Shown one piece after another: positions 32,693 through 49,405 of a DNA stretch of 64,000 nt (positions are counted from its first letter, which is position 1; each line of letters begins with the position of its first letter). The stretch is from Labedella populi (lineage in GTDB: Bacteria; Actinomycetota; Actinomycetes; Actinomycetales; Microbacteriaceae), in assembly GCF_004078655.1 (NCBI RefSeq), contig NZ_RZNC01000001.1, forward strand, positions 124,001-188,000. Direction: 5' to 3'. The notes beneath the pieces were generated by a model that saw only the letters and a list, made by a program, of their open reading frames with translations, was not told the DNA's origin and searched no databases. A program made the translations under genes and the position numbers.

Positions 32693-32777
32693 GCTCCGAC
32701 GCTACCCACCGCGCCGCCCCGCCACCACTTCGTCCGGCTCACCCGGCGCCCGGATACCCCCCGCCCCGACTGACACT

Positions 32778-32835
32778 GCGTACGCAACGGACATCTGCGG
32801 GTGCGATTACACCAGCGGTTGTCCGCTGCGTACGC
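32778..32835. repeat. Long hairpin with TGCGTACGCA ends
   Basis: GCGTACGCAACGGACA (32778-32793) and TGTCCGCTGCGTACGC (32820-32835) pair at 15 of 16 positions, and GGGTG/CACC in the loop can extend the stem. Each arm contains the self-complementary TGCGTACGCA. It lies between two minus-strand genes; no T tract. Confidence 0.68.
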
Positions 32836-32858
32836 AATCGCGCGTCATCCGCGCGACC

Positions 32859-36053: not shown

Positions 36054-37057
36054 CAACTCGGAGGTTCGGACGGCAACAACAACATCACCAGCTACAGCTA
36101 CGACGCCGACGGGAACCTCACCCTCGTCAACGCCCCCGCACCCCAAGGCGACACCTCCTACACGCACGACTCCCTCGGCCGCGTCCTCACCGTCACCGAC
36201 GGCAACGGCGACACCACCACCTACGCGTACAACGTCCGCGACGACATCGTCCTCACCACCTTCGACAATGGCGTGACCCTCACCACCGAGTGGTTCGTGA
36301 ACGGCCTCAAGTCGAAAGACACCGATAGCACGGGACCGGCGACGTTCTTCTACTGGAACGAGCTCGGCCAGCAGTACCGCCAGCAAAACGCCATGTACTC
36401 CGGCGGCGTGATCGTCAGCGGCTCCACCATCACGATCGACTTCACCTACGACGACGCCGGCAATATTCTCTCCTACCGGGACTCGAGCTACGGCACCGTC
36501 ACCTACGTCTACGACGACGCCACCCAGCGCACCCAGATCATCGAACCCACCGGCACCGGCACCACCGGCACCGGCACCGGCACCGGCACCGGCACCGGCA
36601 CCGGCACCGACGGATACTCCTACTCGCCCTATGGAGAAGCACGAGCGACCGGCTCTAACGCGGCCGTCAGCACCAACAACAATCTCCGCTACATCGCTGG
36701 CTACCTCGATTCAGCGAGCGGGCTCTACAAACTCGGATCCCGCTTCTACGACCCCAGCCTCGGGTGCTTCACACAGTTCGATCCGACGGGCCAAGAAAGT
36801 AACCCCTACACCTACGCAGGCTGTAATCCCATCAACGCAACGGACCCTCAGGTAATGCTGCCAGCGCCGGCTGCATCACGCTGGGTAGTATCGCCGCAGG
36901 GGCAGGCGCCGTGACAGCGTACTCAGGGGCTGTGACGGTCGGATTGCTGCCGACGATCGCCGGATGGGTCCCGTCGGCCGGACTGACGGCCGGAGCGGGG
37001 GTCCTTACCGCGGTCGCAACAATAGGTGCCCTCCTAACCTGCGACGTGTTCGGATAG
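36054..37057 (+). pseudogene. RHS-repeat protein, C-terminal fragment with frameshift
   Basis: The open frame from 36054 has no start codon but immediately encodes RHS/YD repeats (SYSYDADGNLTLVN, DSLGRVLTVTDGNGDTTTYA), then the RHS core end LGSRFYDPSLGCFTQFDPTG and NPINATDP. At about 36848 one base appears to be missing: the current frame reads QVMLPAPAAS and ends at 36914, while the next frame continues SGNAASAGCITLGSIAAGAG to a stop at 37057. The 68-residue tip is hydrophobic and Gly-rich. Both the missing N-terminus (over 1000 residues in full RHS proteins) and the frameshift make it a pseudogene. Confidence 0.85.
36549..36609 (+). repeat. GGCACC hexanucleotide repeat
   Basis: About ten near-perfect copies of GGCACC within the RHS fragment, encoding alternating Thr-Gly. 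Because the unit is six bases, copy changes keep the frame. Confidence 0.85.
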
Positions 37058-37068
37058 AGAATAGGACC

Positions 37069-37248
37069 ATGACACAGAGGACGTTGACGATTGGATTGCT
37101 CCTCGGGGTGGGAGGACTGCTACTGGCTGTCGGCGTCGTCCTTGGGGCCTCGGATGTGGGAGTTCTTGCGAATTTCATGCTGTTCGCGGGTGCTGCCTGT
37201 CTCATCGTCGGAATAGCTGCGGCGATTTGGGGAAGACGGAACAGCTAG
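37069..37248 (+). CDS. Small two-helix membrane protein after the RHS gene
   Basis: Protein of 59 residues with two hydrophobic helices (about 6-27 and 33-52) and a basic C-terminus GRRNS. The ATG is 12 bases after the frame-restored stop of the RHS tip, with AGGACC as weak ribosome site. Position and membrane nature are what would be expected of an immunity protein for a membrane-active RHS tip, but no homology is recognised. Confidence 0.62.
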   Translation: MTQRTLTIGLLLGVGGLLLAVGVVLGASDVGVLANFMLFAGAACLIVGIAAAIWGRRNS

Positions 37249-37385
37249 CGCATCGGCTTCTGTAGGGAAGCAGGCAACCGCACCCAGCAGGTCCGTTCCG
37301 GATCCACCGGCACCACCCGCGGGCAATCGACTACGTCTACATCTCCGCCAACCGTCGGCGGCGGCCGTGCCCCTTGTTATGTCGG

Positions 37386-38234
37386 TCAGTCGTTATCCTG
37401 CCGGGTTGCGGGAGGCTCTAGGCGCCGCCCCTCGCGACGAAAAGCCCGGTAGACGACCCGCTCGAATGGTTGAGCTGCTGCGAAAAGGGCTCCGCTCCCG
37501 CTGGATGACGTGTCCATCAGTTCAATCACTCGCCGCCCGCCGGCGTTGCCACGCACTCGCTCCACGATCGTGCCGCCTTGCAGCACCTGATGTCTCCCGT
37601 CGGCGCCCACATCCCCCGGGTAGGAATACGACAACGTCGCGATGGTGCGCTCCTCGCCGGGCCGGCCTTGCTCTCTGGCTTCGGCGATCGCTATCCACTC
37701 TGAGAGTGGCTGAGTTCGATACGCCCATTCCACAGAGTGTTCTCCCGGCGCCAGAACTACCCTTCTCGAGCCGTCCTCCACGTTCAGGGTCATCGCAGCC
37801 CGTCGAGGGCCATCATTCGTGATAGTCAGCGCAAAACCGACTCGGAGAGGGACTGCGTCGTCCCGGGGCACCGTGAACTCCGACCCAACTGAGACCGTCT
37901 CTGCAATCTCACGATCCCTGGCCCTCGAAGGAGTCGTTCGGTCGGGTCTCCAGATGGTGTCGCTCTGCACCGTCACCTCGACGGTAATCCGCGGCATCTC
38001 AGCATCAATCGCCGCTCGGTGCGAATCGTGGCGAAGATGTTGTCCGTGCGTGAACTCGTCACGCGCGATCTTCAACGCCGTCGAAGTGCTCTCCACGCTC
38101 TTGCGCGTGTAGGCGATCTGCACGGCGATGAAGATGACGGAGATGGCTGTAGCGAGAGCCGCAGCGAGCGTGCTCCACGCCGTTAGTACTTCGACAAACG
38201 TCGGCCCGTCGGCGACGGCAGAAGCGATCAGCAT
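37386..38234 (-). CDS. Membrane-anchored hypothetical protein
   Basis: Protein of 282 residues with a membrane helix near the N-terminus (VLTAWSTLAAALATAISVIF), then a short coiled coil (KSVESTSTALKIARDEFTHG) and a beta-rich soluble domain containing RVGFALTITNDGPRRAAMTL. The ATG at 38234 follows AGGATGTACCC. No family name recognised. Codon usage is less GC-biased than core genes nearby, fitting an acquired region. Confidence 0.7.
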   Translation of the reverse strand: MLIASAVADGPTFVEVLTAWSTLAAALATAISVIFIAVQIAYTRKSVESTSTALKIARDEFTHGQHLRHDSHRAAIDAEMPRITVEVTVQSDTIWRPDRTTPSRARDREIAETVSVGSEFTVPRDDAVPLRVGFALTITNDGPRRAAMTLNVEDGSRRVVLAPGEHSVEWAYRTQPLSEWIAIAEAREQGRPGEERTIATLSYSYPGDVGADGRHQVLQGGTIVERVRGNAGGRRVIELMDTSSSGSGALFAAAQPFERVVYRAFRREGRRLEPPATRQDND

Positions 38235-38392
38235 GGGTACATCCTGGCAGCGCTTCACGGGCCTCGAGAGACCCCACGACAACCGACTTCAGATATGTGC
38301 AAGCGATCCCATGTGTCAGTATTCCTCCCCCGATGCGGCAACGACCAAACACTAGGGACCCATCAAGAGCGGCATCTTGGGGAGACGAGACG

Positions 38393-39862
38393 TCAGCAAG
38401 TTACATGACGGCCGTGCGCTCGCAGCATTGGGTCTAGTGGGAGCCGACATATGGAGCAGGCAGGGATCGAACGATCGACGGCGGGCAGGGGCACCTCCTC
38501 GCACGGCGGCGGAAGCACCGCGGACTTAGCTGGCCGAGGAAGCAGACTGAGCCTCGGCGGGTTCGGGTGACGACGGTAGAACACGACCCCCCTTCTGAAC
38601 GTATTGGTCTCGGTCAGCACGCCTGCGACGGCGAGGCCACGACAGAATCTCAGCACGGCCCGGGCGCCCACCTTGTCCTCGAAGGCACCCGGGAAGTGCT
38701 CGAGGAGGCCGTCGCGGATGGTCGCCGGGAAGATGAAGACCCCGAACCGGGCGGGCCGCACGTAACGGGAGTAGATGAACCACTGCCAGACCGTCGCGGG
38801 AAGCGGCAGGTCGAGATCCACGTCTTTATCGAGCCACGGGGGGATCCCGTCGGGGAACTGCGCGATCGCCTCCTGCCCGTCGGCGGATCGAGCCCACACC
38901 GCGGCGACCGCCTCTCGTCGAGCACGGTTGATCACCGCGAGTTCCTCGCGCTGCCGGGCCTCTGCGGCTTCGCGTTCAAGCCTGGCCTTCTCAGCAGCGG
39001 CCGCCCGCACCGCCTCTCGTCGATGCCGATCGATGTCGGCTTCGACTCGTCGAGCATGAACCTTTTCCCAAATGGCTGTCTGGGAGTCGAGTTCCCGGGT
39101 GTGCCGGCTACGAAGACCACCGGCCTCGAGCCGGAATTTGCGGAGGCTCTCAACCTGGAGGTGCCCGTGGTCGCGGCGTGCGTGGACCGTCCAAGAGGTC
39201 GGAGGCGGGACTGTGGTCACCGGGTATCCGATCTCGCGGAGCGAGGGGTTGATCCAGTAAATCGCGGCGCCGGTGTCGGCGAGTGTCTCGTGAAGCGGCG
39301 AGAGGTGCACTCTCGGCTCGCCCCATTCTGTGGTCATGTGGATGCCGCTACTGATGAATATCCGCATGTCGTGAATGCTCTGCTTGGCGTAGGACTCTCT
39401 TCTCTCGAGGAGCTTGTCTGGGCTGAGAGACGAGTATTGGACTTCGATGGCGTACCGGGTGTCGTCAGGGAACGTCACCATGACGTCGGCGACTCGCTCT
39501 CGGGAGGCGTTCGAGGGCTTCTCAACGTCCACGACCGCATCAGGGTGCGCCCAACGAGCCCAGCGAGCCATCAGCGCTTTCGCTTCGACGTGGAACCACG
39601 TCTCCGGCGAGTGATCGACGGACGGATCGCTCCGGAGGTGCCGGAAATGATCTCGACGAGTGAGAGATCCGACGGTGGTGATGGACGGGTCGGGGCATTT
39701 CAGCACCGGGCACATCAGTTCGGTTCGGGTGGTCTGTCTCATGGCCGCGGCTTGGCCGTCAGCGAGCTCCACGAGATCTCCGGTACCGTCGCGGCGCGCG
39801 GCGTAAATGCGGCGTGTCTCACCACGCAGGAAGGGGTGATCGATTCCCCCGCCCCGGTCCAC
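38393..39862 (-). CDS. CoiA-like (competence protein) nuclease-family protein
   Basis: Protein of about 489 residues. DHFRHLRSDPSVDHSPETWF and AIEVQYSSLSPDKLLERRES with KQSIHDMRIFI correspond to the CoiA restriction-endonuclease-like fold, in which the E-x-Q motif is part of the active site. An Arg/Glu/Ala-rich helix (about 265-315) follows and the C-terminus has CSICRLPLDP...HVTC, a possible zinc site. An initiation site at MRQTTRTELMCP is also possible. In Firmicutes CoiA aids DNA uptake; here no competence genes adjoin, so a mobile-element or defence role is equally plausible. Confidence 0.72.
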   Translation of the reverse strand: MDRGGGIDHPFLRGETRRIYAARRDGTGDLVELADGQAAAMRQTTRTELMCPVLKCPDPSITTVGSLTRRDHFRHLRSDPSVDHSPETWFHVEAKALMARWARWAHPDAVVDVEKPSNASRERVADVMVTFPDDTRYAIEVQYSSLSPDKLLERRESYAKQSIHDMRIFISSGIHMTTEWGEPRVHLSPLHETLADTGAAIYWINPSLREIGYPVTTVPPPTSWTVHARRDHGHLQVESLRKFRLEAGGLRSRHTRELDSQTAIWEKVHARRVEADIDRHRREAVRAAAAEKARLEREAAEARQREELAVINRARREAVAAVWARSADGQEAIAQFPDGIPPWLDKDVDLDLPLPATVWQWFIYSRYVRPARFGVFIFPATIRDGLLEHFPGAFEDKVGARAVLRFCRGLAVAGVLTETNTFRRGVVFYRRHPNPPRLSLLPRPAKSAVLPPPCEEVPLPAVDRSIPACSICRLPLDPMLRAHGRHVTC

Positions 39863-40253
39863 ACCGGCAGACTACCCGGCGGGTTTCGGCGGCGTCGCCC
39901 CCGCTATCGGGGGTCGATCGGTGCAATGAGTGTGGGGTCGATCGGTGCGATGAGTCTGGGATCGCTGTAGTCGACCGATCTGGCGTTGTTGACCTTCCGG
40001 TCGACCTCGTAGGTCCGAACGGTCGACGCGATCGAGCTCGAGCTGCGTCGAGTGCGTCGAGCAGCTGCAGGGGTTCAGAGAGTGTGGCCGCGGGGATCAG
40101 TCGGCGTGCGAGCTCAGCGCGCACGGACCCGGCGATTTTCTTCTTCTCTGACACCCTGACCATGCACTCACCGTACGGCTGCAGCCGCACTCGCTCGAGG
40201 GCGTTTCCACAGGCTGCAGCGCGCTCAGAACGCCAGGTAAGCAGATCGGACAC
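39819..40253 (-). CDS. Hypothetical protein with Ser/Arg-rich repeat
   Basis: Frame of 144 residues with GTG start and AAAGGGGA ribosome site. The first half is mixed (GNALERVRLQPYGECMVRVS, ELARRLIPAATLSEPLQLLD); the second half has 8-residue repeats (HRSTPHSL, HRSTPDSG) made by a 24-base tandem duplication at 39911-39958. Its end overlaps the CoiA-like gene by 44 bases, which weakens the call. Family unknown. Confidence 0.4.
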   Translation of the reverse strand: MSDLLTWRSERAAACGNALERVRLQPYGECMVRVSEKKKIAGSVRAELARRLIPAATLSEPLQLLDALDAARARSRRPFGPTRSTGRSTTPDRSTTAIPDSSHRSTPHSLHRSTPDSGGDAAETRRVVCRCGPGRGNRSPLPAW

Positions 40254-40384
40254 GCCGTGTCCCCTTTCAGGCGAGTTCGCGGTAAGTGAGACGAATCGGC
40301 CGCGGAATCACCCGGGAGGCGCCGCAGCGGCCTGCGGCGATCTGCTTCACGAACATGTCAGCAACGTCCGGTGCTTAGGCCGGC

Positions 40385-41092
40385 TCAGCTGAACGAAAAT
40401 GTCCTGTAGCTGCTCCGGACGTTGAAGCGTCGTCCTTCCTTGCGTCGCTGCAGGAGGGCGGCGATCGTGTCGATGTCGTCAGGTCGCATATTCAACACGC
40501 GACACTTCACGCGCACCTGTTCGACCGTGATCTGCACCCAGCGCTCAGGCCGGTTCATCATGTCCGCCTTGAGCTTGTCCTCTTCGTTCCACTTGAGGCC
40601 GGTCGAGTATCCAGCCGCCATCCCCGCGACGTACTCGAGGATGCCGTCGACGCCATTCGGCAGCGTTTCGCACACGACCTCACCAGGACTCGCGGCCGGC
40701 TCCACGGTCCGATCGTCAAACAGCTGAATGGGATTCGCATCGTCGATCCACTCAGCCGCCTCGTCCTCGTTCCATTCGATCACCGCAAGAGCGTCGAGGT
40801 CCTGGTCCCAGAGCTTCTGGAAGTGCTCGCGATTCGGCCATGCGTGAAGGACGCGCCCCGACAGCATGCCGATCGAGAACCCCCGCCAGACCACATGCCG
40901 CACGTTCGAATGCGCGATCAGCTGTTTGACGATCGGACTGTCAACCTCGCGCCGGGGAGTCACTACTACCACCTGGCCGCCCGATTGCTTTTGGAGCCAC
41001 CGGACTGCACGGGCGTTCTGGGGCTCACGAGATCGTTCACCGTCGGTGAGACGTGAGATCGCGACCGGGTAGTTGTACGACTCTGACGACAT
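40385..41092 (-). CDS. Hypothetical protein downstream of the Ubl operon
   Basis: Protein of 235 residues with ATG at 41092 after a perfect GAAGGAG ribosome site. It has an Asp/Glu-rich central part (VIEWNEDEAAEWIDDANPIQ) and one VVVVTPRREVDSPIVKQLI segment suggesting an alpha/beta fold. No membrane helix or metal motif. It lies 89 bases after DUF6527 in the same direction and could be the last gene of that operon. I do not recognise the family. Confidence 0.72.
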   Translation of the reverse strand: MSSESYNYPVAISRLTDGERSREPQNARAVRWLQKQSGGQVVVVTPRREVDSPIVKQLIAHSNVRHVVWRGFSIGMLSGRVLHAWPNREHFQKLWDQDLDALAVIEWNEDEAAEWIDDANPIQLFDDRTVEPAASPGEVVCETLPNGVDGILEYVAGMAAGYSTGLKWNEEDKLKADMMNRPERWVQITVEQVRVKCRVLNMRPDDIDTIAALLQRRKEGRRFNVRSSYRTFSFS

Positions 41093-41181
41093 GGCATCTC
41101 CTTCGCTCGGGATCCTGAATGTGATGCCCGCCACGGACACTTCTCCTCCGCTTGGTGCGCTTGCTGCCAACCGCCCGCCCA

Positions 41182-41577
41182 TCAGCGCACCCAGTTGAAA
41201 ATCACCTTGAGCGCTCGCGCGAGCCACGGCTCTTGCGTGGCGTTCAGTTCCTGGGCTGCCGCATGGTCTCGCGCGTGGGCTCGCGCGTGCTGTGATTCGG
41301 TCATATCCGAAAGCCATCGGATTCGAGACTCGCGGATGATGTAATGCGAGCTGCAGGCCAGTGCCCCGTTGCCGATAGATGGCGAGAGGGTCACCTGGCC
41401 GTCGTAGTGGAGTGTCCACCCTGCCTTCCCGAGCGGGGTAACGATCTCCTCGTTACATCCGCAGCAGCAGAGGTGAGCAGCGATGTTGTGCGTCCCGCTG
41501 ATGTACACCAATCCGGGCTTCAGTGCGGCCGGGAGCTCCTCCACGAACCGGTGGTCGACCTCGAGGCGGCGGCTCAT
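41182..41577 (-). CDS. DUF6527 family protein
   Basis: Protein of 131 residues. The conserved core is GLVYISGTHNIAAHLCCCGC then EEIVTPL and VTLSPSIGNGALACSSHYII. Cys37, 38, 39 and 41 together with Cys75 and His78 look like a zinc site or a reactive Cys cluster, and it ends in a helical, basic tail. The ATG overlaps the E1-like gene by 4 bases (ATGA), so the two are co-translated. DUF6527 commonly occurs beside multiubiquitin and ThiF genes; its activity is unknown, and an E2/E3-like or ligand-binding role in that pathway is inference. Confidence 0.85.
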   Translation of the reverse strand: MSRRLEVDHRFVEELPAALKPGLVYISGTHNIAAHLCCCGCNEEIVTPLGKAGWTLHYDGQVTLSPSIGNGALACSSHYIIRESRIRWLSDMTESQHARAHARDHAAAQELNATQEPWLARALKVIFNWVR

Positions 41578-42713
41578 GGGGAGAGTACGGTGATCATGTT
41601 GTCGCTGACGGGATACGCGAACACGGCCGCGTCAGAGGCCATATCGGCGTAAAACCCGAGGAGTCGCTTCCACTGGACAACTGCCAAGGCCGCGTTGAGC
41701 GCGTTGAGGTCGGAGATCTGAATGTTGCGCCGGTACTCATCTGGCGCCGTACCGCCGGAGGGAATCCGGACGCGCCGCTGGGCGGTGCTGACAGACACTC
41801 GTAGCAGTCCCGTCAGCCCGCTGCCGGTATCCGTGACCCCCATGCCCACGTCGATAAACGAGACCCCAGCCCCTTCCAGGGCGTCGACGATACCTTCCCT
41901 GTCGGAACCGTCGTCGAGGGCGAGGAACACGAAGTCGAAGTCCGCGACCTCGGCGACAGTGTCACGCTCGAAAAGCACAGGGTGCGGAAAGATGCCCTGC
42001 TTGAGCCGGGAGTATTGCGCGGACCAATACTCAGCCTTATTCGGCTGGCCCCGCAGATCAGAAACGTCCGCCGCGCCCGGTGCGCGGAAGGCGTTGTGAT
42101 TGAGGAAGACGTCGCCGTCGTACAGGTGAATCTCTGCGACGGGCGTCTTCGCTACGAGGTCCAGAATGTGCGATCCCGTGCCACCGAGGCCGACGATCGC
42201 GATCTTCAACCCTGCGAAAACCGTGTTCAGACCGGTGATACCGGCCCTGCTCGAAGCAGAGTCGCGGTATACGAACGGGGAGGCATCGGCGTTGACTTCG
42301 CGGACGGGGTAGGTGCGCGCGGTGGAGCGCGGATCGATGATGAGCGCCCAGCGTGTGAGCAACTCGACGTAGGTAGTGACCTTGTCGTAGTAGTTCGCGT
42401 AGTTGCCGGCGGGTGGCTTCGCCGAGAAGTAGAAATCGGTGCTCCGTCCCGGCAGGAACTCGTTGTGCTGGGCGCTATTGATGACCTTGGAGAGCGGCCT
42501 CCCGTCGGCGTCGCAGGGTTCGGCTCCGCCGAAATGGGTTGTGTGGTCCGGCGGCGTGGTCAGCTCGTCGCCCGCGAGCGCGGCCGGCATGACGAGCCGG
42601 CCGCGCTGCACGATCTTTTGTGCGGTGACGTAAGGCACGTCGTCGATGACCAGGTACCCGTCGATTAGCTGCACGTCGTACCCCTCGTCGAGGAGGCGAG
42701 TGAAGTCGTCCAT
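41574..42713 (-). CDS. E1-like adenylyltransferase, DUF6791-ThiF fusion
   Basis: Protein of 379 residues. Residues 1-165 match the DUF6791 pattern (GYDVQLIDGYLVIDDVPYVT, then GGAEPCDADG); residues 168-379 are a ThiF/E1 domain with nucleotide loop IAIVGLGGTGSHI (172-183), DGD (199-201), NHNAFR (206-211) and a Lys at 226. It should adenylate the C-terminus of the Ubl encoded just upstream. The only cysteine of the protein is Cys67 in the DUF6791 part; the ThiF part has none, so no usual E1 thioester Cys. The gene starts 2 bases after the Ubl gene and overlaps DUF6527. Confidence 0.9.
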   Translation of the reverse strand: MDDFTRLLDEGYDVQLIDGYLVIDDVPYVTAQKIVQRGRLVMPAALAGDELTTPPDHTTHFGGAEPCDADGRPLSKVINSAQHNEFLPGRSTDFYFSAKPPAGNYANYYDKVTTYVELLTRWALIIDPRSTARTYPVREVNADASPFVYRDSASSRAGITGLNTVFAGLKIAIVGLGGTGSHILDLVAKTPVAEIHLYDGDVFLNHNAFRAPGAADVSDLRGQPNKAEYWSAQYSRLKQGIFPHPVLFERDTVAEVADFDFVFLALDDGSDREGIVDALEGAGVSFIDVGMGVTDTGSGLTGLLRVSVSTAQRRVRIPSGGTAPDEYRRNIQISDLNALNAALAVVQWKRLLGFYADMASDAAVFAYPVSDNMITVLSP

Positions 42714-42715
42714 GT

Positions 42716-43018
42716 TTAGGACCGCGTAGTGATCTGGACGGCGAAGCTCGTGCCCTTCTTGACCCGAATTCGTCCGGTCGGCGTTAGCGAGCCCGACTCG
42801 TTGCCGTGCTGTGCGCGAGTGTAGGTCACGATGTACTCCGTGTCCGCCCCAGGAGCCTGGCCCGGGAAGGCGAACTCGACGACCTGCTCGTAGGAGACCT
42901 CCTTGTCGTCGACGAGGTGAGGGCGCGCGTTGACGAAGATCTGGATCACGTTGCCGTTCGGGCGCCCGCGATCAGTGGTCTGGAACTCGTCGTTAGTGGT
43001 GGTTTGCTGGTCAGCCAT
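42716..43018 (-). CDS. Multiubiquitin-domain protein (Ubl)
   Basis: Protein of 100 residues: a polar N-terminus of about 22, then one beta-grasp unit (NVIQIFVNARPHLVDDKEVS, EQVVEFAFPGQAPGADTEYI, GRIRVKKGTSFAVQI). This matches the multiubiquitin family, which often has several tandem units; here there is only one. The C-terminus is Thr-Thr-Arg-Ser, without Gly-Gly, and a T/D-x-x-S end is usual in this family as I recall it. It lies 2 bases before the E1-like gene. Start ATG has GGGAG before it. Confidence 0.87.
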   Translation of the reverse strand: MADQQTTTNDEFQTTDRGRPNGNVIQIFVNARPHLVDDKEVSYEQVVEFAFPGQAPGADTEYIVTYTRAQHGNESGSLTPTGRIRVKKGTSFAVQITTRS

Positions 43019-43099
43019 GAGGACTCCCGTCCGTTAGAGGGGCCGATTACCCCCGTCAGTTGTGAATGACGGGACAGCCCTTGAATCGTCCAACGTGTC

Positions 43100-44050
43100 T
43101 CAGGCGGCGCACTCCTTGCAGACGTCGGCGCCGATGTCGAACTGGGCGGGGTGCTTCACAAGCCAGCAGCCTTCACACGTCCGCGTCTTGGGTTCGGGGT
43201 GCTCCTCGACTTGCATCTTGCCGAACATCGCGGTGCCGTCGCGGGGCGGCGAATAGGAGAGCCACGGCGCGGCCTCTTCCACCATCATCATGATCATCCG
43301 ATCGCCCGCCCACGCTGCCTGCCCGTACAGCGTGTTCGACGTTCCCCCGGTGCTGTAGCGGATGTGAGCGTCATTGCGCGTGACGATCCCCCCTTCGCCG
43401 CGGCGCTCCAGCATGGTTCGAACCAGCGGGTTCGCCGTCTGGTCGCTCGTCCGGCGTGGTGGGAAGAGACCCCCGCGGGACGCCGCGAACGTGACCGACC
43501 CGGTCTCGTCGAGAACGGCGACAACACCAGCAGACGTGAGCAGACCGGCCAACCTCACGCTGATCGCCGCACGCGACGCGTTCGAAAGCGTGAACAGCTC
43601 CACGGCACTTCGGGCGCTGGGGCCCTCCGCGCCGAGAACACTCGCGACCATGTCGGCTGGAAGCAGAACGCGGGCCGCGAACGCATCACACGCCGCCTCC
43701 TCGAACAAGTCCGGCTCAGGATGCATGAGCACTGCTTCCCCAAGCGTCAGATCCGTGCGCTGCAGGTGATGGCCGAGTTCATGAAGCAGCGTAAAGTGTT
43801 GCCGTCGTACCGACATCGACTGAGTGACGACCAGGGTCGGCGGGGTATCGCGATATCCGCCCGCGACGGAGCAATCCAGCTGTGCTTCGGCGGGCACGAA
43901 CTCCGGAACCCTGATTACCGAGACGTCCTCGCGTTGATCGAGCGCATCGAACGCATCCAGCGTCAGAGCCTCGACGTCACCGTCGCGGCGGCACCAGACG
44001 GCGATCATCGCCGCGACCTGCGCAGCCACCCCGTCTACGACCCTCGCCAT
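43100..44050 (-). CDS. ImmA/IrrE metallopeptidase with C-terminal zinc ribbon
   Basis: Protein of 316 residues. HFTLLHELGHHLQ gives HELGH (90-94), and DLFEEAACDAFAARVLLP provides the third ligand Glu and the FAaxLL helix. The end is a CEGC...CKEC ribbon (about 292-315) not usual for small repressor-cleaving ImmA. It is between the HTH gene (2-base gap) and the Ubl gene (81 bases). It could cleave the adjacent regulator, or process or remove the Ubl in place of a JAB peptidase; both are inference. Confidence 0.85.
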   Translation of the reverse strand: MARVVDGVAAQVAAMIAVWCRRDGDVEALTLDAFDALDQREDVSVIRVPEFVPAEAQLDCSVAGGYRDTPPTLVVTQSMSVRRQHFTLLHELGHHLQRTDLTLGEAVLMHPEPDLFEEAACDAFAARVLLPADMVASVLGAEGPSARSAVELFTLSNASRAAISVRLAGLLTSAGVVAVLDETGSVTFAASRGGLFPPRRTSDQTANPLVRTMLERRGEGGIVTRNDAHIRYSTGGTSNTLYGQAAWAGDRMIMMMVEEAAPWLSYSPPRDGTAMFGKMQVEEHPEPKTRTCEGCWLVKHPAQFDIGADVCKECAA

Positions 44051-44052
44051 AG

Positions 44053-44961
44053 TCAGGCGTCCTCTGCCGCGAGCATTGCTTGAATTCGTTGACGCCAGAG
44101 TTCGCGTCCGCTGCCCTTGCCGCGCGCTGCGAGTGCAAATGCACTTCGCCCCAATTCCTCACGGGCCCCGGCCTCGCCGCGCGTACCGGCTCGGGCGCGA
44201 ATCACAGCGCGCCACCGTGGTTCCATGAGTTCGCGCTCCAGGTCGTCCGGAAGTGGGCGTGCTGCAGCGAGCACATCAGCGACCGGGACTCCCGCAACGT
44301 TCGCGACAGCCTCAGCCTGATCAAGGGTGAGCTCGCGCTGGCCCTTGATAACCGACATGGCTACCGCTTGCGTGATCCCCAGCGTCTCCATGAGCGCTGA
44401 CAGGCTCAGCGGAAACTTTATTGTCTGGTGTGTCTTAGGCGTCTGCGAGCGCTGCGGACGTACCAACGCGAGTTCATCGATGCTGTCGAGCAACCTGTTG
44501 AAGGCAATTGCCGCGCCCGAAGCGGGCAAGGGCATAGCACCGAATCGTGGGCTGTCACCATGCCCGAAACCCGCGGCGCGTGTCTTATGCGCTCCGCTGA
44601 GCACACGGTGCGTCACGTCCTCTCGGAGTTCGGCGACGACATCGTGAAGCACGATGAATGACATCGTCGCGTGGACGTTCGGCCAGATCGCCACACGACC
44701 GCGCAGCGGGCTGTCCTCGCCCTCAAGCACCAGCGCGTTTACATCTGCAACACCCGGTTCGAGGCTCACCGGGTTAACAGTGACCTCAGCTGCGTCGTCG
44801 TCCACGCCGACAACGAGAACGGTTGCCTCGCAGCGGCCCCAGATTGCCTCGCGAACCTGACCAGGACGCACGTCATCACCGCTATCGGCCGGTCGACCCG
44901 GTGCGCTCGGCGGGAACTGCGCTGTCAACGCCGCCCAACGACCCTCAATGTCCTTCGTCAT
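44053..44961 (-). CDS. HTH protein of the Ubl operon
   Basis: Protein of about 302 residues. The C-terminal 120 residues begin with an XRE-like HTH (LSLSALMETLGITQAVAMSV, KGQRELTLDQAEAVANVAGV) and continue in basic helices; the N-terminal 170 residues form an uncharacterised domain with VREAIWGRCEATVLVVGVDD. The ATG shares the TGA of the sigma-like gene (a GTG three bases upstream is also possible) and ends 2 bases before the peptidase gene. An XRE-ImmA/IrrE pair inside a Ubl operon suggests that the peptidase controls this protein. Confidence 0.78.
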   Translation of the reverse strand: MTKDIEGRWAALTAQFPPSAPGRPADSGDDVRPGQVREAIWGRCEATVLVVGVDDDAAEVTVNPVSLEPGVADVNALVLEGEDSPLRGRVAIWPNVHATMSFIVLHDVVAELREDVTHRVLSGAHKTRAAGFGHGDSPRFGAMPLPASGAAIAFNRLLDSIDELALVRPQRSQTPKTHQTIKFPLSLSALMETLGITQAVAMSVIKGQRELTLDQAEAVANVAGVPVADVLAAARPLPDDLERELMEPRWRAVIRARAGTRGEAGAREELGRSAFALAARGKGSGRELWRQRIQAMLAAEDA

Positions 44962-45911
44962 CACGCTCCCTCAACTTGGATAGACGGGACGGCGACGTCA
45001 TCGTCCAGGATCAGCCTTAGGACATCCCCCATCACTTGCCTGGCACGAGTCCGATCGCCAGCGAGTTCGACGAGCCTGGCCTTCGCGCTCTGGATGCGAC
45101 TGTAGGCCGTGCTGCGCCCTACGCCTAGGCGAGAAGCGACCTCTCGCCGATCATCGCCAAAGCGCAGGGCAAGCCTTTCAGCCTCGGTCAGCAGGGCGAA
45201 GATGTCCTGCGCGCTGCGAGAGTCAGTCGTCTGCTCGACTGCTTGGACGAACGCGTCGTTCGAATGCGTGTCTTCTGCGTCTTCGATCTCTGCGGTGCTG
45301 TGTCGCGCCGTCAGCCAGTCTCCATCCTCGAGGACGGAGGGGAATCGCTGCGCGCACAGGTAGGTGAGGTCGGCGATGTGCAGGCGTCCGCTCAGCTTCA
45401 GGACCGCCAGAAGCATCTCCTCAAGTTGCCCCGTCTTTCCAAGCACGACGCGCCCGCCAGCGTCGACAAAGACATCGACACGGATGTCTGTGGCTGCTGT
45501 ATGAATCTCGTCGAAACTCGCGACGCGGTCCATGTCCTCCTCGCCTTCGCGGAACCAGTGGTTCGCGACCGCCGATGCGCGGAACAGCGGGGACCGCTGC
45601 AGCCGCTTCTCAAGCCGATGGCGCAAGGCGCCGTATGGCGTGGTCCTGACGCGATCGATCAGCCAGTGGCGGGCCCACTGTCGCGTCCGACGGGTAGCCG
45701 CCTCGTCATCAGGTGTTGCGAGGACGGCGTCAACGTAGCTGGTGGCGCGGTCGGCGAAGAATTCGAGCGCTAGGTCCTCAGCCGTATCGATTTCCGCCAG
45801 GCCGGGAAAACGTCGCAATTCGCTGTTGAACACTCGCAGAAGCATCGACAGTGCCGCTGGGCCCAGTACACCTCGCGCGGCTGCCTCATCTCGGATGAGA
45901 GTTGTACTCAC
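44961..45911 (-). CDS. Sigma-factor-like HTH protein, first gene of the Ubl operon
   Basis: Protein of 316 residues. C-terminal LLTEAERLALRFGDDRREVA with SRLGVGRSTAYSRIQSAKAR resembles sigma-70 region 4 (HTH with recognition helix), and a helical middle part contains LKLSGRLHIADLTYLCAQRF. No clear region 2 was seen. The GTG at 45911 is chosen because AGGAG stands seven bases upstream; a TTG at 45950 is a weaker start. It may be a dedicated promoter-recognition factor or an HTH adaptor; the activity is unknown. Confidence 0.72.
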   Translation of the reverse strand: MSTTLIRDEAAARGVLGPAALSMLLRVFNSELRRFPGLAEIDTAEDLALEFFADRATSYVDAVLATPDDEAATRRTRQWARHWLIDRVRTTPYGALRHRLEKRLQRSPLFRASAVANHWFREGEEDMDRVASFDEIHTAATDIRVDVFVDAGGRVVLGKTGQLEEMLLAVLKLSGRLHIADLTYLCAQRFPSVLEDGDWLTARHSTAEIEDAEDTHSNDAFVQAVEQTTDSRSAQDIFALLTEAERLALRFGDDRREVASRLGVGRSTAYSRIQSAKARLVELAGDRTRARQVMGDVLRLILDDDVAVPSIQVEGA

Positions 45912-46165
45912 TCCCAGACTCCTCACCCTGACATGCCACTCACCTCGCAAGGTAGGTATCCGCGGGCTGCATCGGGAGGCGACACGCCGAGGTTCTGACA
46001 GATTCAGGAGATCATTTGTGGTCAGCCGAGTCTCGTTATCCGCTTCTCAGCAGGAGTAAGCTCGCCCGTGGAGCTTGCGGGGTCGGAGCGAGCGAACCCC
46101 CGCCATACATCTACATTGCCGTCGGCTTACAGGTCGATGCGAGGGGATCGAAGGGGATGCGCGAC

Positions 46166-46981
46166 CTAGGCGCCAGGGGCCAATCCTTCGACCATCATCT
46201 GGACCCCATGGACGTTCTCGTCGTGCAGCCAGAGCGTCTGCTGTGGTGATCGGAGGATGCCGGAGCTCGGGCCGACCTCGGCGTCCGGGTCGAGGTTGAT
46301 GTCGTAGAAGAACTCGAGCGCTCCGACCCCGACCCCGCTCTTGAACGAGGTGAGGATCCGCCGGGTGCGATCGTAGTTGGCCGCCGATGCGCGCAGCGAG
46401 AGCATCAACGAATCCCCCTCGAACTGATCGATGATGTCCACCAGCCCAATCCGCACGCCGAGCTGCGAGAAGACGCCGACGGGTTGGTCGACCTCTCCGC
46501 TGAGGTAGGCGATGAGCGAGTCGGGGACTCGGCCGGCGTTCTCAGCCACACGACATCCGATGTGCTTCGCGTAGTAGCGGCCGAGCAACGGAAGCATCTC
46601 GTCGATGTCCGTGCCGAAGACCTCACCGAAGTCGATCGCGACGTCGGCCAGGGGTAGCTCGAGGATCTCGTCGTGGTTCTCGATGAGGTAGTCCGACCAG
46701 ATCGAGTAGGCGTCATCGAAGGGCTGGCTCCGTGCGCCATTGCAGGTGTGGCACAGGGACTTTGAGAACATGAAGCCGGCGGCCTTCGGGCCTCGCAGCG
46801 ATTCGACCGTGTCATCGTGAAGCCAGGCGACGTCGTCGCCGTAGTGACCGCGGCCGAAGATCTTCGTGACCTCCGTGCGCTTCCACTTGTGCTCCCGCGA
46901 CGTCGCCTCCGCTCCGCACCACCAGCAGACGCCCTTGTAGTCGTAGAGGCAATCCGCGGGAACGGGACTCAGCTCAGTCAT
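46166..46981 (-). CDS. HNH-like nuclease-fold protein
   Basis: Protein of 271 residues. The N-terminal part holds CWWCGAEATSREHKWKRTEV and SLCHTCNGARSQPFDDAYSI, two CxxC knuckles flanking an EHK motif, which is the pattern of an HNH / treble-clef nuclease with a divergent second His. The remainder is alpha/beta of unknown type. It precedes the Ubl operon in the same direction, 254 bases upstream. Nuclease activity is inferred from the motif only. Confidence 0.72.
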   Translation of the reverse strand: MTELSPVPADCLYDYKGVCWWCGAEATSREHKWKRTEVTKIFGRGHYGDDVAWLHDDTVESLRGPKAAGFMFSKSLCHTCNGARSQPFDDAYSIWSDYLIENHDEILELPLADVAIDFGEVFGTDIDEMLPLLGRYYAKHIGCRVAENAGRVPDSLIAYLSGEVDQPVGVFSQLGVRIGLVDIIDQFEGDSLMLSLRASAANYDRTRRILTSFKSGVGVGALEFFYDINLDPDAEVGPSSGILRSPQQTLWLHDENVHGVQMMVEGLAPGA

Positions 46982-47006
46982 GGGAGACCTCAGTTCTGCT
47001 CGTCGT

Positions 47007-47216
47007 TCAGAGCTCGCGCGGATTCTTCGCGCTGCCGCTGCCAGAGGCCGGCGACTCCGCTGGCCTGACGTTGGATGCCGGCACGGTCTCGTCCTTGTGC
47101 CTAGCGCCCCACCACGCTCCCTTGAGACGTTCGTGCGTTTCGTTGCGGATGTAATACCCGTGCGTTCGGTATCCGTTGACGGCGACTTGGCCCCGCGGTT
47201 GTTCGTCTTCGCTCAC
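47007..47216 (-). CDS. Small partition-like or RHH-like protein
   Basis: Frame of 69 residues with GYYIRNETHERLKGAWWGAR, reminiscent of small plasmid partition accessory proteins of Actinobacteria (R.ETxxRxKAAWW), then a polar, disordered tail. The start GTG is reasonable though no strong ribosome site is seen. No parA gene is nearby, so it may be a relic of a plasmid or integrative element. Confidence 0.5.
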   Translation of the reverse strand: MSEDEQPRGQVAVNGYRTHGYYIRNETHERLKGAWWGARHKDETVPASNVRPAESPASGSGSAKNPREL

Positions 47217-47351
47217 GGCTTCGGGCTTCCGTCGGTCTGGAAATCGAGGTGCGGACGACGGGTTTCGTCTTTTTCCTTTCTCTAGATTTTACGGCTTCTG
47301 CCCCGGAAATTCGGCCGCTTCCTCGCGTACCGGCCGGGATACTGTGGCGGG

Positions 47352-48249
47352 ATGCGCGACGGGATGCACGACCGGGTAGAAGCCGAAGAGGCGATACATC
47401 AGGGCTTGCAGTTCCTTCACGCGAACTTCGCCGTCTTCGACGAGCTCGACCGCCGCACGCGTGGGCTCACGATCGAGCCGCGGAGGTCGCTGGCGGGCGA
47501 TCGCGATGCCGCGAACTACAGCTCGATACCGGATCAGGTGCGAGCCAGCGTCGGGACTGCGCTCGATCATCTGCTCACCTTGCGCCTCGTCATCGAGCGG
47601 GGGCACGCGTTGACGGCGATGGCGCCGTACACGCTCGTCAGGAGCGCGTATGAGGCCTGTGGGACGGCGATGTGGCTGCTGCACCCCAAGACCCGGGACG
47701 AGCGGTCCTGCGCGCCTGCAGCTGACCTACGACGCACGCCGGCAGGTTCGAAGCGTCTACACCGACACGGGGATCCCCGATCACGGTTTCGACCGGGCGA
47801 AGTCGACCGTCGAGCGGCTGAGGGATACTCGTCCCCGTCTCCGGGGGGAGGACCTCCGTCCCGCCACGATCACAAACCGGTTGCCGGAAGTGGACCAGCT
47901 GTTCCCGGGCACCTCCATGCGGCCGATCGTGCTGTGGCGCACCGCGAGCGGAATGGCGCACGGGAATCCCGCGACGATGCTGCAGGTGCTCGACCGGGCG
48001 CAGATGACGCCTGCAGCGCACGGCGGCGCCGATTTCAGCGTCACCTCGAGCGCGGCTCACCTCGCGGTGTTCTACGACGACGCCCTGCAGATGCTCGCGG
48101 CGGTGCGGGATCTTTACGATCACCGCAATCGCGCTCGAGCGGCGCCTGAGCCCTACACGTGGGAGCAGTTATCGGCGGGGCAGATCTCGATGCCGAACAG
48201 CGGGAAGACCTCGATCGGGTTCACACATCCCCCGCCGGCGGCGTCGTAG
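47352..48249 (+). pseudogene. Hypothetical protein interrupted by a frameshift
   Basis: The first frame (from 47352) encodes HQGLQFLHANFAVFDELDRR and TLVRSAYEACGTAMWLLHP; near 47705 sense passes to the next frame, which encodes LQLTYDARRQVRSVYTDTGI and MRPIVLWRTASGMAHGNPAT to a stop at 48249. The two parts together give about 290 residues. The last 100 bases overlap the antisense M23 fragment, so the original end has probably been lost. I do not recognise the family. Confidence 0.65.
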
Positions 48250-48602
48250 ACGCGGAGCTTCGCGACCTCGGGGTTGGTGTTTCCGGCGACGTTGACCCGG
48301 ATGTCGAGGTGGCAGCCGGAGGACGGAGCGACGTTACCCATGGCTCCGATCTGTTGGCTGGCTGCGATCTGGTCGCCGACATCGACGATCCGGTCGGACT
48401 TGTACATATGCAGGTAGCTGACGGTGAATCCTTCGGGGGTCTTGATCGACAGGAACAGGGCGCTGCTGAGAGTGACCTCGCCCGGCACCATCGCGTACAC
48501 CGGGCGCCCGCAGGGGTTGAGCCAGTTCGGGAGATCCACGGCCGGGTGCCAGGTGCCCGCGCCGGCAGCCGGGGACTCGCGCGTCCCAAAGCGGCTCGTC
48601 AT
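48153..48602 (-). CDS. M23 metallopeptidase domain, N-terminally truncated
   Basis: Frame of 149 residues that starts at the domain itself (MTSRFGTRESPAAG). It has HPAVD (Hxxx D) and YLHMYKSDR, then GCHLDIRV, the M23 active-site set; the end GGGCVNPIEVFPLFGIEICP is like M23 proteins of actinobacterial conjugative elements. Usual homologues have a membrane anchor and 150 more residues upstream, absent here. It overlaps the frameshifted plus-strand gene. Likely a remnant. Confidence 0.62.
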   Translation of the reverse strand: MTSRFGTRESPAAGAGTWHPAVDLPNWLNPCGRPVYAMVPGEVTLSSALFLSIKTPEGFTVSYLHMYKSDRIVDVGDQIAASQQIGAMGNVAPSSGCHLDIRVNVAGNTNPEVAKLRVYDAAGGGCVNPIEVFPLFGIEICPADNCSHV

Positions 48603-48623
48603 GTTGAACGGTTGCTCGAGGGG

Positions 48624-49103
48624 TTACATCGCCTCGCCTGAGGATCCCGGGGCCGCGCAGGCTCCTCCCCCGCCGCCGGCGGCTGATCCGCTCAACTTTT
48701 CGACGAGCGTCTTACCTGCCGGCACCCACTTGTCGTAGGCGTCCGGGAAGGCACCCACCTGGACGGTCTGAGCCGCTTTCCCGGGTGTCATGAGTTCCCA
48801 CGCCGGCACGTCGAGGAGCCCGTCGATCAATTGCTGCTCCGTGAAATAGATGCCGTCGACGGGTCGAGACCGCTTCGTTTCCGCGTGAACCTGCGCCGCG
48901 ATCGTGAGTTCTGCGGACGTGAGCCGGCGGTCGACGACCATAACGAGGTCGACGTCACTTCGGCCGGGTTTCCAGTCCCCGAGCGCAGCCGATCCCACGA
49001 TGATCACCCCGCGGAGCAGGTCGGGAAGCCGCTGCCGATGCTCGAGCGCGAAGCGGCCGGCGATCTGCTCCGGCGCGACCGCGTCCCCTCACTCATTCGA
49101 CAT
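48624..49103 (-). pseudogene. Nucleotidyltransferase-domain protein with in-frame stop
   Basis: From the ATG at 49103 the frame has a TGA four codons later (49091-49089), after which it reads APEQIAGRFALEHRQRLPDL and the nucleotidyltransferase motif VGSAALGDWKPGRSDVDLVM (GSxxxG...DxD). A GTG at 49007 could restart translation just before this motif, giving 127 residues. The C-terminus is a Gly/Ala-rich string of low complexity. Resembles aminoglycoside-nucleotidyltransferase-like proteins; probably broken. Confidence 0.55.
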
Positions 49104-49167
49104 CGGAGCCATCCTGGCAAACCGTCGAATCCGGTGTAGCTTTCGGGCAGGACAGGTTGGAGGGCCG

Positions 49168-49398
49168 ATGCGTGATGTGACGACGCCATCGCCTCGGAAG
49201 AGGCGAATCGTCGACGGCGTCAGCTGGGTCGTCTTCGTGGCCTGGTTGATCCTCTGCATCGGAATGACCGTCTGGACCGTCGTCGAGGGGCGCGACCCGG
49301 GAATACTCATCATCCTCTGGCCCCTCCTGCTCTTCATGGCGATCGGACCGATCCGTTCGATGCACGGCAAGCATGCGGATTCATCCGCGGACGACTGA
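49168..49398 (+). CDS. Small two-helix membrane protein
   Basis: Protein of 76 residues. A basic N-terminus (TPSPRKRRI) is followed by two hydrophobic helices (VSWVVFVAWLILCIGMTVWT; ILIILWPLLLFMAIGPI) and a polar tail. The ATG has TTGGAGGGCCG before it. No recognised family. It marks the return to ordinary chromosomal composition. Confidence 0.72.
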   Translation: MRDVTTPSPRKRRIVDGVSWVVFVAWLILCIGMTVWTVVEGRDPGILIILWPLLLFMAIGPIRSMHGKHADSSADD

Positions 49399-49405
49399 TC
49401 CCTGA

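Follow-up and report, generated by a model that had tools for sequence, protein, structure and literature searches.

A candidate sigma-type controller with paired promoter-like sites in front of a ubiquitin-like operon of Labedella populi

The DNA stretch analysed here, called the window, comprises 64,000 nucleotides of the actinobacterium Labedella populi (bases 124001-188000 of contig 1; genome size 3.42 Mb). Six genes lie packed on its minus strand and encode a sigma-like protein (SIG), a helix-turn-helix (HTH) protein, an M78 metallopeptidase, a ubiquitin-like protein (Ubl), a DUF6791-ThiF protein and a DUF6527 protein. We propose, with somewhat less than even confidence, that the first three genes represent a previously undescribed class of immune controller of Actinomycetota, in which a dedicated sigma factor and its anti-sigma-like HTH partner act together with a CapP-like peptidase through paired promoters of the extracytoplasmic function (ECF) type, and which stands before Ubl-conjugation, Bub (bacterial ubiquitination-like) or CBASS (cyclic oligonucleotide-based antiphage signalling system) operons.

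How dangerous bacterial immune operons are silenced and switched on is an open question. The controllers CapW/BrxR, CapH plus CapP and CapK plus CapS all lift a repressor (PMC13373217, in excerpt), and a WYL-type activator is reported in mycobacteria (PMC10693628, in excerpt). Relatives also place the three-gene controller before known virus-defence genes, which points to a new means by which bacteria may switch on immunity. If true, immunity would be switched on by the release of a sigma factor, that is by activation, a logic different from the lifting of a repressor, and the 24-base cis-element would be a DNA motif with which more actinobacterial operons could be found. A literature search, which included few subscription papers and lacked the two nearest Bub papers, gave among the matches listed neither a description of such a controller nor an assignment of DUF6791 as an E2.

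The controller and its paired sites

The controller genes and the two sites that accompany them are the following.

44961-45911, minus strand: SIG, 316 aa, starting with GTG at 45911; a longer version with a start at 45950 is possible
44053-44964, minus strand: HTH protein, 303 aa, with a small N-terminal domain, an XRE/HigA-type HTH and a conserved C-terminal 'LAAR' block
43100-44050, minus strand: M78 (CapP-like) metallopeptidase, 316 aa, with HELGHH at residue 90 and a C-terminal CxxC...CxxC tail
44983-45006, minus strand: site A1, GGACGAT-N13-CGTC, ECF-promoter-like, inside the 3' end of SIG and upstream of the HTH-peptidase pair
43068-43091, minus strand: site A2, GGACGAT-N13-CGTC, ECF-promoter-like, within the gap of 81 bases that precedes the Ubl gene

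The motif was defined by eye from the gaps between peptidase and effector genes of the window and of L099, L095, L096 and L097 (loci are given by their running labels), and it is present in these gaps despite the different genes that follow, which belong to the DUF6791 core, to Bub or to CBASS. Two boxes at a spacing of 16 bases are the layout of ECF promoters. In 5,000 shuffles, the motif-bearing gaps gave GGAC-N16-CGTC between 8 and 34 times. A strict scan covered the window plus every locus longer than 4 kb, 3.1 million bases over the two strands, and gave 12 matches, two of them duplicating the window; the ten distinct ones lie in the five defining gaps, just upstream of the HTH gene in four cases (window, L095, L096 and L099) and elsewhere once (L060). 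The copies upstream of the HTH genes had not been used in the definition of the motif. A second copy in L097 is degenerate, with GGAC-N16-CGTC intact. Ten exact matches are found in the own genome, two of them in the locus, and the reversed pattern is found zero times; only the pair in the locus ends in GTCCCGTC. Within 250 bases upstream of Ubl, GGAC-N16-CGTC is present in 1 of 76 core loci without the controller.

A second element, GAnTTACnTCGTCnGTnCC, is found between peptidase and effector genes in L003, L051, L083 and L098 and, with one to three mismatches, ahead of their HTH genes. Where two loci have the same element, their SIG proteins are on the whole more alike than across groups: likeness is 24-49% within the first group and 32-41% within the second (85% for L051/L083), compared to 18-27% across groups. 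The 200 bases upstream of SIG in nine loci contain no copy of either element with fewer than three mismatches.

When the HTH and SIG proteins were used as queries, without reference to the core, 13 distinct loci were found outside the window, eight of them with all three genes. Plasmid matches came from M. crocinum, M. chubuense, S. longwoodensis (three records) and Sinomonas, and genome matches from samples of the order (2 of 297, the own genome and G051), the class (8 of 394) and the phylum (5 of 396). The three equal-scoring S. longwoodensis records were counted once, and G333 was not counted beside L095, since both are the M. crocinum plasmid. Short or repeat copies were left uncounted (L088, L089, L090, L091, L092, L100, L101, L104, L105, L106 and L136); L102 and L103, further DUF6791 genomes of the order, were used for profile scans only.

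Behind all eight full controllers stand either Ubl-conjugation genes (four loci) or CBASS cyclase genes (four loci). In L099 and L109 the DUF6791 core follows; in L095 and L096 genes for multiubiquitin, Prok-E2_E-like (in L095 at E 3e-4, below cut-off) and ThiF proteins follow. Since residues 13-422 of the L095 ThiF protein match BubCD at 3e-23, the L095 operon is a Bub operon. In L096 the SIG and M78 genes are broken into pieces. The cyclases behind the controllers of L097, L098, L244 and L245 were recognised by PADLOC at E 9e-167 to 3e-175, and three of these four loci also have an E2 gene. SIG is thus present in 8 of 8 loci that precede Ubl or CBASS genes and was detected in 0 of 5 others (L110, L111, L246, L247 and L248; two-sided Fisher 0.0008), none of which gave a match for Ubl, E1 or DUF6527. 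Six further controllers were met via the core: those of the window, L003, L051 and L083 and the variants L033 and L049. Taken together, the controller looks like a module separate from the core.

The variants come from acidimicrobial metagenome-assembled genomes (MAGs; L033:3489-9571 and L049:3485-9580), where SIG, a zinc anti-sigma-type/HTH protein, a RecN/SMC-like ATPase (587 aa) and the Ubl core are encoded in this order. The ATPase takes the position of the peptidase, and it is possible that it is a different DNA-damage sensor in the same slot.

An alignment was made of the SIG proteins from 11 of the 14 controller loci. SIG has a region-4-type HTH at the C-terminal end and a weak region-2-like helix. 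It matches the ECF model TIGR02937 at E 6e-4 (19.5 bits, below the cut-off of 42.9) and the PHROG phage sigma factor family at E 1e-4, and its region 4 matches 22 ECF sigma factors in hhalign with Prob 57. The N-terminal half aligns in order with the region 2.3/2.4 helix at a score of 22.7, and 40 column shuffles reached at most 17.5. For the HTH protein alone no Pfam match was obtained, and a profile built from eight homologues matched HTH structures of the XRE/HigA type, the best at E 2e-5. The homologues of L109, L033 and L049 carry an extra N-terminal H-x3-C-x2-C zinc domain, which matches 30 zinc anti-sigma domains in hhalign, the match being centred on this motif (Prob 96, score 42.7; 40 shuffles at most 14.0). 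The two-box sites and the zinc domain of these relatives make a sigma/anti-sigma pair the better reading, but the HTH protein of the window, which has no such domain, may act as a repressor. The peptidase matches PADLOC capP at E 1.5e-13. Scans of viral sequences gave no relative for either SIG of the window or the HTH protein of L097.

The ubiquitin-like core

The controller of the window is followed by three genes.

42716-43018, minus strand: Ubl, one multiubiquitin (beta-grasp) domain, 100 aa, C-terminus TTRS
41574-42713, minus strand: probable E2-E1 fusion, 379 aa, with DUF6791 (E2/UBC-like) at about residues 1-126 and ThiF/E1 at about 154-379
41182-41577, minus strand: small DUF6527 protein with conserved H35, C37, C39, C41, C75, S77 and H78

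DUF6527 (PF20137, 3e-21), DUF6791 (PF20590, 7e-47), ThiF (PF00899, 1e-7), Multi_ubiq (PF14452, 1e-15) and Peptidase_M78 (PF06114, 1e-8) are all above the Pfam cut-offs in the locus. A profile of seven E1-like proteins found 509 relatives of the DUF6791-ThiF protein in 84,980 GTDB species genomes, and the loci of the best 80 were kept; together with the window copy and six plasmid loci they form a set of 87. That Ubl, E1-like and DUF6527 genes are a known kind of neighbourhood, as the earlier note had it, is supported. Ubl was detected in 86 of the 87 loci and DUF6527 in 84. The profile did not detect Ubl in L003, where a DUF3892 gene occupies its place; DUF6527 was not found in L040, L043 and L082, and the contig of L082 ends at that point. 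Ubl, DUF6791-ThiF and DUF6527 are one portable core. Its hosts in the 80 loci are bacteria of many phyla and one archaeal MAG; the E1-like gene was matched in 114 of 72,556 plasmid records and DUF6791 in 6 of the 297 genomes of the order sample, including both genomes with the HTH protein. A phage origin was rejected, since the E1-like protein had no match among 50,697 phage records and only two relatives were seen in viral contigs.

The core mostly has other regulators than the one in the window, so that the six genes as a single co-inherited unit were rejected as well. The earlier note had asked whether they co-occur: they do stand together in other actinobacteria (L099, L109, L051 and L083), as two modules rather than one. 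It had also singled out the repressor/peptidase pair and the sigma-like factor as additions. These are present, and the peptidase turned out to be common: an M78 gene lies at most 4.5 kb upstream of the core in 54 of the 80 loci (55 with L051, which the filter missed). The unusual part is the sigma-like gene with the paired promoter-like sites. STAS and/or GHKL genes, CapK/CapS-like by eye, were found in seven loci (L009, L010, L011, L018, L020, L022 and L031), WYL regulators on two plasmids (L006 and L007), and a divergent HTH plus ImmA pair on another (L005). Upstream of the core, an iterated search of the 80 loci gave no further WYL gene; a first-pass hidden Markov model search gave one downstream in L020. 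These regulators agree with those reported for Bub operons, of which 219 of 544 have CapW or CapH plus CapP and 59 have CapK plus CapS (PMC13373217, in excerpt).

Upstream of the Ubl core in L056 (427-1017, minus strand) and L064 (267-878, minus strand) divergent sigma-like open reading frames (ORFs) were recognised by eye, which the SIG profile did not match. Sigma-type control of the Ubl core may have arisen more than once.

The structure model of the full DUF6791-ThiF protein has a mean pLDDT (predicted local distance difference test) of 92.1, and its closest solved structure is BubCD of Citrobacter (Foldseek E 3e-13). The E1 domain of BubCD superimposes on model residues 154-379 with a VIA Z of 23.7 (root-mean-square deviation, rmsd, 2.5 over 214 residues); next come ThiF, UBA5, SUMO E1, MccB, Atg7 and MoeB, with Z 21-22 for ThiF, MoeB and MccB. 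G175, G177, G178, G180, D199, D201, N207, R210 and K226 are strictly conserved in all 80 sequences. A BFVD search with the full model gave six matches below E 0.001, of ThiF or E1 type where named, and the PADLOC E1-E2 profiles match the fusion over only some 40-80 residues around the P-loop.

The DUF6791 half, modelled alone with a pLDDT of 92.6, is probably an E2-type (UBC) domain fused to the E1 domain. The chains ranked highest by Foldseek were compared with VIA-align; 998 were aligned, 28 reached Z 5 or more, and 50 rows are listed. The best match is chain C of the BubCD-BubB complex, which we infer from the structure title to be BubB (Z 8.6, rmsd 3.5, 113 residues). The titles of the other 49 rows (Z 5.9-4.6) name UEV, UBC/E2, CdnG-E2, Atg3 or UFC1 proteins. 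With the BubB chain as best match, the statement of the earlier note that the locus has no E2 gene is probably wrong. H57, G63, P66 and G71 show no variation across the 80 sequences, and position 97 is Ser in 79 of 80. C67, the sole cysteine of the window protein, is ten residues from H57, the distance from the HPN histidine to the catalytic cysteine in UBC enzymes; a thioester, if any, must form there. However, several points speak against an E2. By Foldseek alone, DUF6791 matches no E2 with E under 0.1 (Atg10 comes closest, at E 0.15 and probability 0.35), a Z of 8.6 is barely over the level that the VIA tool labels common, and C67 is Cys in only 73 of 80 relatives. Since Foldseek is weak here, the assignment of the E2 fold is of moderate strength. 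If it holds, an unnamed domain with 509 relatives becomes a one-chain E2-E1, a small setting in which to study Ubl transfer.

The Ubl of the window ends without Gly-Gly. Across 80 loci the C-terminal tetrapeptide follows the pattern T-x-[K/R/Q/L]-[S/A], with Thr at -4 in all 80, Ser last in 79 and T-x-[KR]-S in 76. The family profile matches the solved Ubl 9cd2 at E 2e-22, which likewise ends in TDKS. Nine of the ten listed plasmid relatives of 9cd2 lie at a ThiF-family gene (the tenth record is unannotated), so that this operon type already has a solved Ubl; three of them are loci L005-L007 of the DUF6791 core. In many of L009-L087 the Ubl and E1 genes, with the starts chosen here, overlap by 26 bases, a stretch that encodes both the Ubl C-terminus TDKS and the E1 N-terminus QLISRS. 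Part of the C-terminal conservation of Ubl is thus due to shared coding. The genes of the window and of L008 have no such overlap, and still the window Ubl ends in TTRS.

In DUF6527, H35, C37, C41, C75, S77, H78 and Y79 are invariant in 78 of 78 sequences, and C39 is present in 77. The conserved His and Cys residues probably form a zinc site. A search of solved structures gave no relative of DUF6527.

Discussion

At about even odds, we explain the locus as follows: the peptidase cuts the anti-sigma-like HTH protein and frees the sigma factor, which turns on an immune-type Ubl operon. SIG would be a dedicated sigma factor of the ECF type, with the HTH protein holding it as inhibitor. Single-stranded DNA activates the cleavage of their repressors by CapP and PprI (PMC13373217 and PMC10904395, both in excerpt). 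By analogy, a stress signal such as single-stranded DNA would activate the M78 peptidase, which would cleave the HTH protein and release SIG. Free SIG would then fire A1, giving more HTH protein and peptidase as feedback, and A2, giving the Ubl operon. The E1 half, with the fold and motifs described above, would adenylate the C-terminus of Ubl, and Ubl would pass to the fused E2-like half, most likely to C67, and from there to target proteins. For DUF6527 we can only guess at a zinc-type accessory, perhaps E3-like or a deconjugase. If true, the controller of the window drives a very compact Ubl enzyme, in which one chain with a single cysteine holds both E2 and E1, together with a Ubl whose last residue is Ser. 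The purpose is probably phage- or DNA-damage-induced immunity on a mobile island. That this three-gene controller also stands before CBASS cyclase genes elsewhere lends the defence hypothesis indirect support.

Several observations weigh against this explanation. The sequence of SIG only weakly identifies it as a sigma factor: its region 4 scores higher with nine LuxR-type HTHs (Prob 75) than with ECF factors, its region 2 reaches just Prob 4 with ECF factors in hhalign, the SIG profile matched no solved sigma factor, and region 4 is degenerate by eye in L051 and L083. The HTH protein of the window has no zinc domain and one Cys in total, and on its relatives Pfam zf-HC2 is not significant (E 0.24 in L049; none in L033 and trimmed L109). 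The strict motif is absent from L244 and L245, with four mismatches in the best match, and neither element was found in the gaps of L109, L033 and L049. The related Bub operons are not known to act against phages (PMC13373217). The pairs L095/L096, L033/L049 and L051/L083 are close and not independent. Defence genes are also adjoined by HTH-peptidase pairs without SIG: in L247 (5021-7897, minus strand) such a pair is directly followed by a TIR/ThsB-like protein (PADLOC PDC-S66 4.6e-64), and in L110 a type IIG restriction enzyme lies about 1.4 kb beyond it. Because these neighbours are of defence type, the pair may serve defence genes without SIG too. The higher LuxR score and the SIG-less pairs beside defence genes are the reasons why the explanation is held less firmly.

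A motif-free test of the likeness of each controller's two control regions gave a mixed result, which likewise counts against paired sites. The longest shared word was reached by 0 of 60 shuffles in L095, L096, L098 and L033, by 1 in L003, 3 in L109, 8 in L049, 10 in the window, 11 in L097 and 22-25 in L099, L244 and L245, and by 55 and 56 in L083 and L051, respectively. The best 24-base match was reached by 0-2 of 30 shuffles in the window, L095, L096, L097, L098, L051, L083, L109, L033 and L049, by 4 in L003 and L245, by 10 in L244 and by 18 in L099.

The middle protein may instead act as a repressor of the CapH type that binds A1 and A2 as operators and is removed by peptidase cleavage, with SIG as an accessory DNA-binding or sensing subunit rather than a sigma factor. 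We regard this as possible but doubtful. Its HTH is of the XRE/HigA type, the peptidase is CapP-like, and the GACG/CGTC of sites A also forms an inverted repeat, so the sites could be operators of the HTH protein. CapH plus CapP are known to control CBASS and Bub operons (PMC13373217, in excerpt). Pairs without SIG exist (L110, L246, L247 and L248), and the HTH of SIG also resembles LuxR-type HTHs. A PADLOC scan gave no capH match for the HTH protein, the presence of a capH model in the library being unconfirmed, and a 7-base inverted repeat by site A2, CCCGTCA/TGACGGG, was equalled or beaten in 13 of 200 shuffles and not used. Against a repressor, site A keeps two ECF-type boxes at 16-base spacing in five controllers and is no clean palindrome, SIG goes strictly with the Ubl- and CBASS-linked loci among the 13 from the controller queries, and three homologues of the HTH protein carry the anti-sigma-type zinc domain.

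In a second alternative, the core does not serve immunity. A protein-modification system for stress or housekeeping, mobile because plasmids profit from it, would fit the spread of the core over many bacterial phyla and one archaeal MAG and the 114 plasmid records, and global stress responses were left open for Bub by the authors (PMC13373217, in excerpt). We consider this unlikely, as the same controller precedes CBASS genes and as CapK/CapS-like STAS/GHKL genes and WYL regulators are found beside the core. Still less probable is it that no conjugation takes place and that the ThiF protein modifies Ubl itself or employs it to carry sulfur or nucleotides, in the manner of MccB, ThiF and MoeB. 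The missing Gly-Gly, the T-x-[KR]-S end and the nearness of the E1 domain to these three enzymes point in this direction; the fused UBC-like domain would then be left without evident purpose, and the nearest solved E1 is that of BubCD.

With the Bub system of Citrobacter (BubA/BubB/BubCD; PDB 9ea4, 9ea5, 9ea8, 9eae and 9eav) the window shares the BubCD-type E1 domain, the BubB chain is the closest match to the fused DUF6791 (with Foldseek alone not significant), and both kinds of operon occur with CapW/WYL, CapH plus CapP-like or CapK plus CapS-like regulators. Bub uses Ser oxyester chemistry and an operon-specific serine protease. In the window, E2 and E1 are one chain of 379 aa, whereas BubB is a separate chain; only residues 170-428 of BubCD align, its N-terminal part being without match in the window protein; DUF6527 is added, and the proposed acceptor position is a Cys. 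Because of the one-chain E2-E1 and the partial alignment with BubCD, we file the system as Bub-like, not as Bub. The multiubiquitin protein ZDHYS365 (9cd2) is a Ubl of the same operon type but has 222 residues, of which about the last 87 align with the 100-residue Ubl of the window. Cap2 of type II CBASS places the E2 domain before the E1 domain in one chain, as the window protein probably does; a dedicated Ubl is present in the window, and no cyclase match was found among its six genes.

As in CapH plus CapP, a CapP-like M78 peptidase adjoins an XRE-type HTH gene beside an immune-type operon. However, the pair of the window is co-directional with the operon (divergent in L005), its HTH protein has 303 aa with an extra N-terminal domain compared to 151 in L005, the peptidase has a Cys-rich tail, and a sigma-like gene and paired promoter-like sites are added. 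ECF sigma factors with a zinc-binding anti-sigma factor (ZAS) are resembled by the two-box sites at ECF spacing and by the ZAS-type domain of three relatives; differences are the proposed release by an M78 peptidase, the lack of a zinc domain in the HTH protein of the window and the weakly supported sigma regions of SIG.

Genomic context

The earlier note had described six packed minus-strand genes with a single 81-base gap, and the six ORFs are indeed present at their coordinates with junctions of -4, +2, +81, +2 and -4 bases. Sigma-70 consensus promoters and terminators within the locus were not above shuffles. Three other genomes of the genus contain nothing that corresponds to the 4.77 kb locus, apart from fragments of 44-59 bases in one of them. 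The earlier note was right to place the locus on an accessory island:

36070-49403, strand not assigned: accessory island with the locus, absent from the corresponding position in those three genomes

The flanks up to 36059/36069 and from 49404/49416 are conserved in these three genomes, where they lie 63 bases apart in one, 171 in the second and separated by about 2 kb of other DNA in the third. The locus therefore sits on an island of about 13.3 kb. Its guanine-plus-cytosine content is 0.63-0.65 across 36-48 kb, compared to 0.71 before and 0.68 after. Two neighbours had been named in the earlier note. The CoiA-like gene stands (CoiA_nuc, above Pfam cut-off, at 38393-39862 of the window), but the HNH label of gene 46166-46981 is unverified, with zero Pfam models at E<=1 and zero PHROG families at 0.001.

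The right end of the island has a Peptidase M23-like ORF (48153-48602) and a small nucleotidyltransferase-like ORF (48624-49007). At the left end, by the junction, a fragment (36273-36914) matches an RHS repeat at E 4e-4, narrowly missing the cut-off. Positions 32775-32845 of the window hold a repeat of roughly 60 bases with many further copies in the own genome and in relatives.

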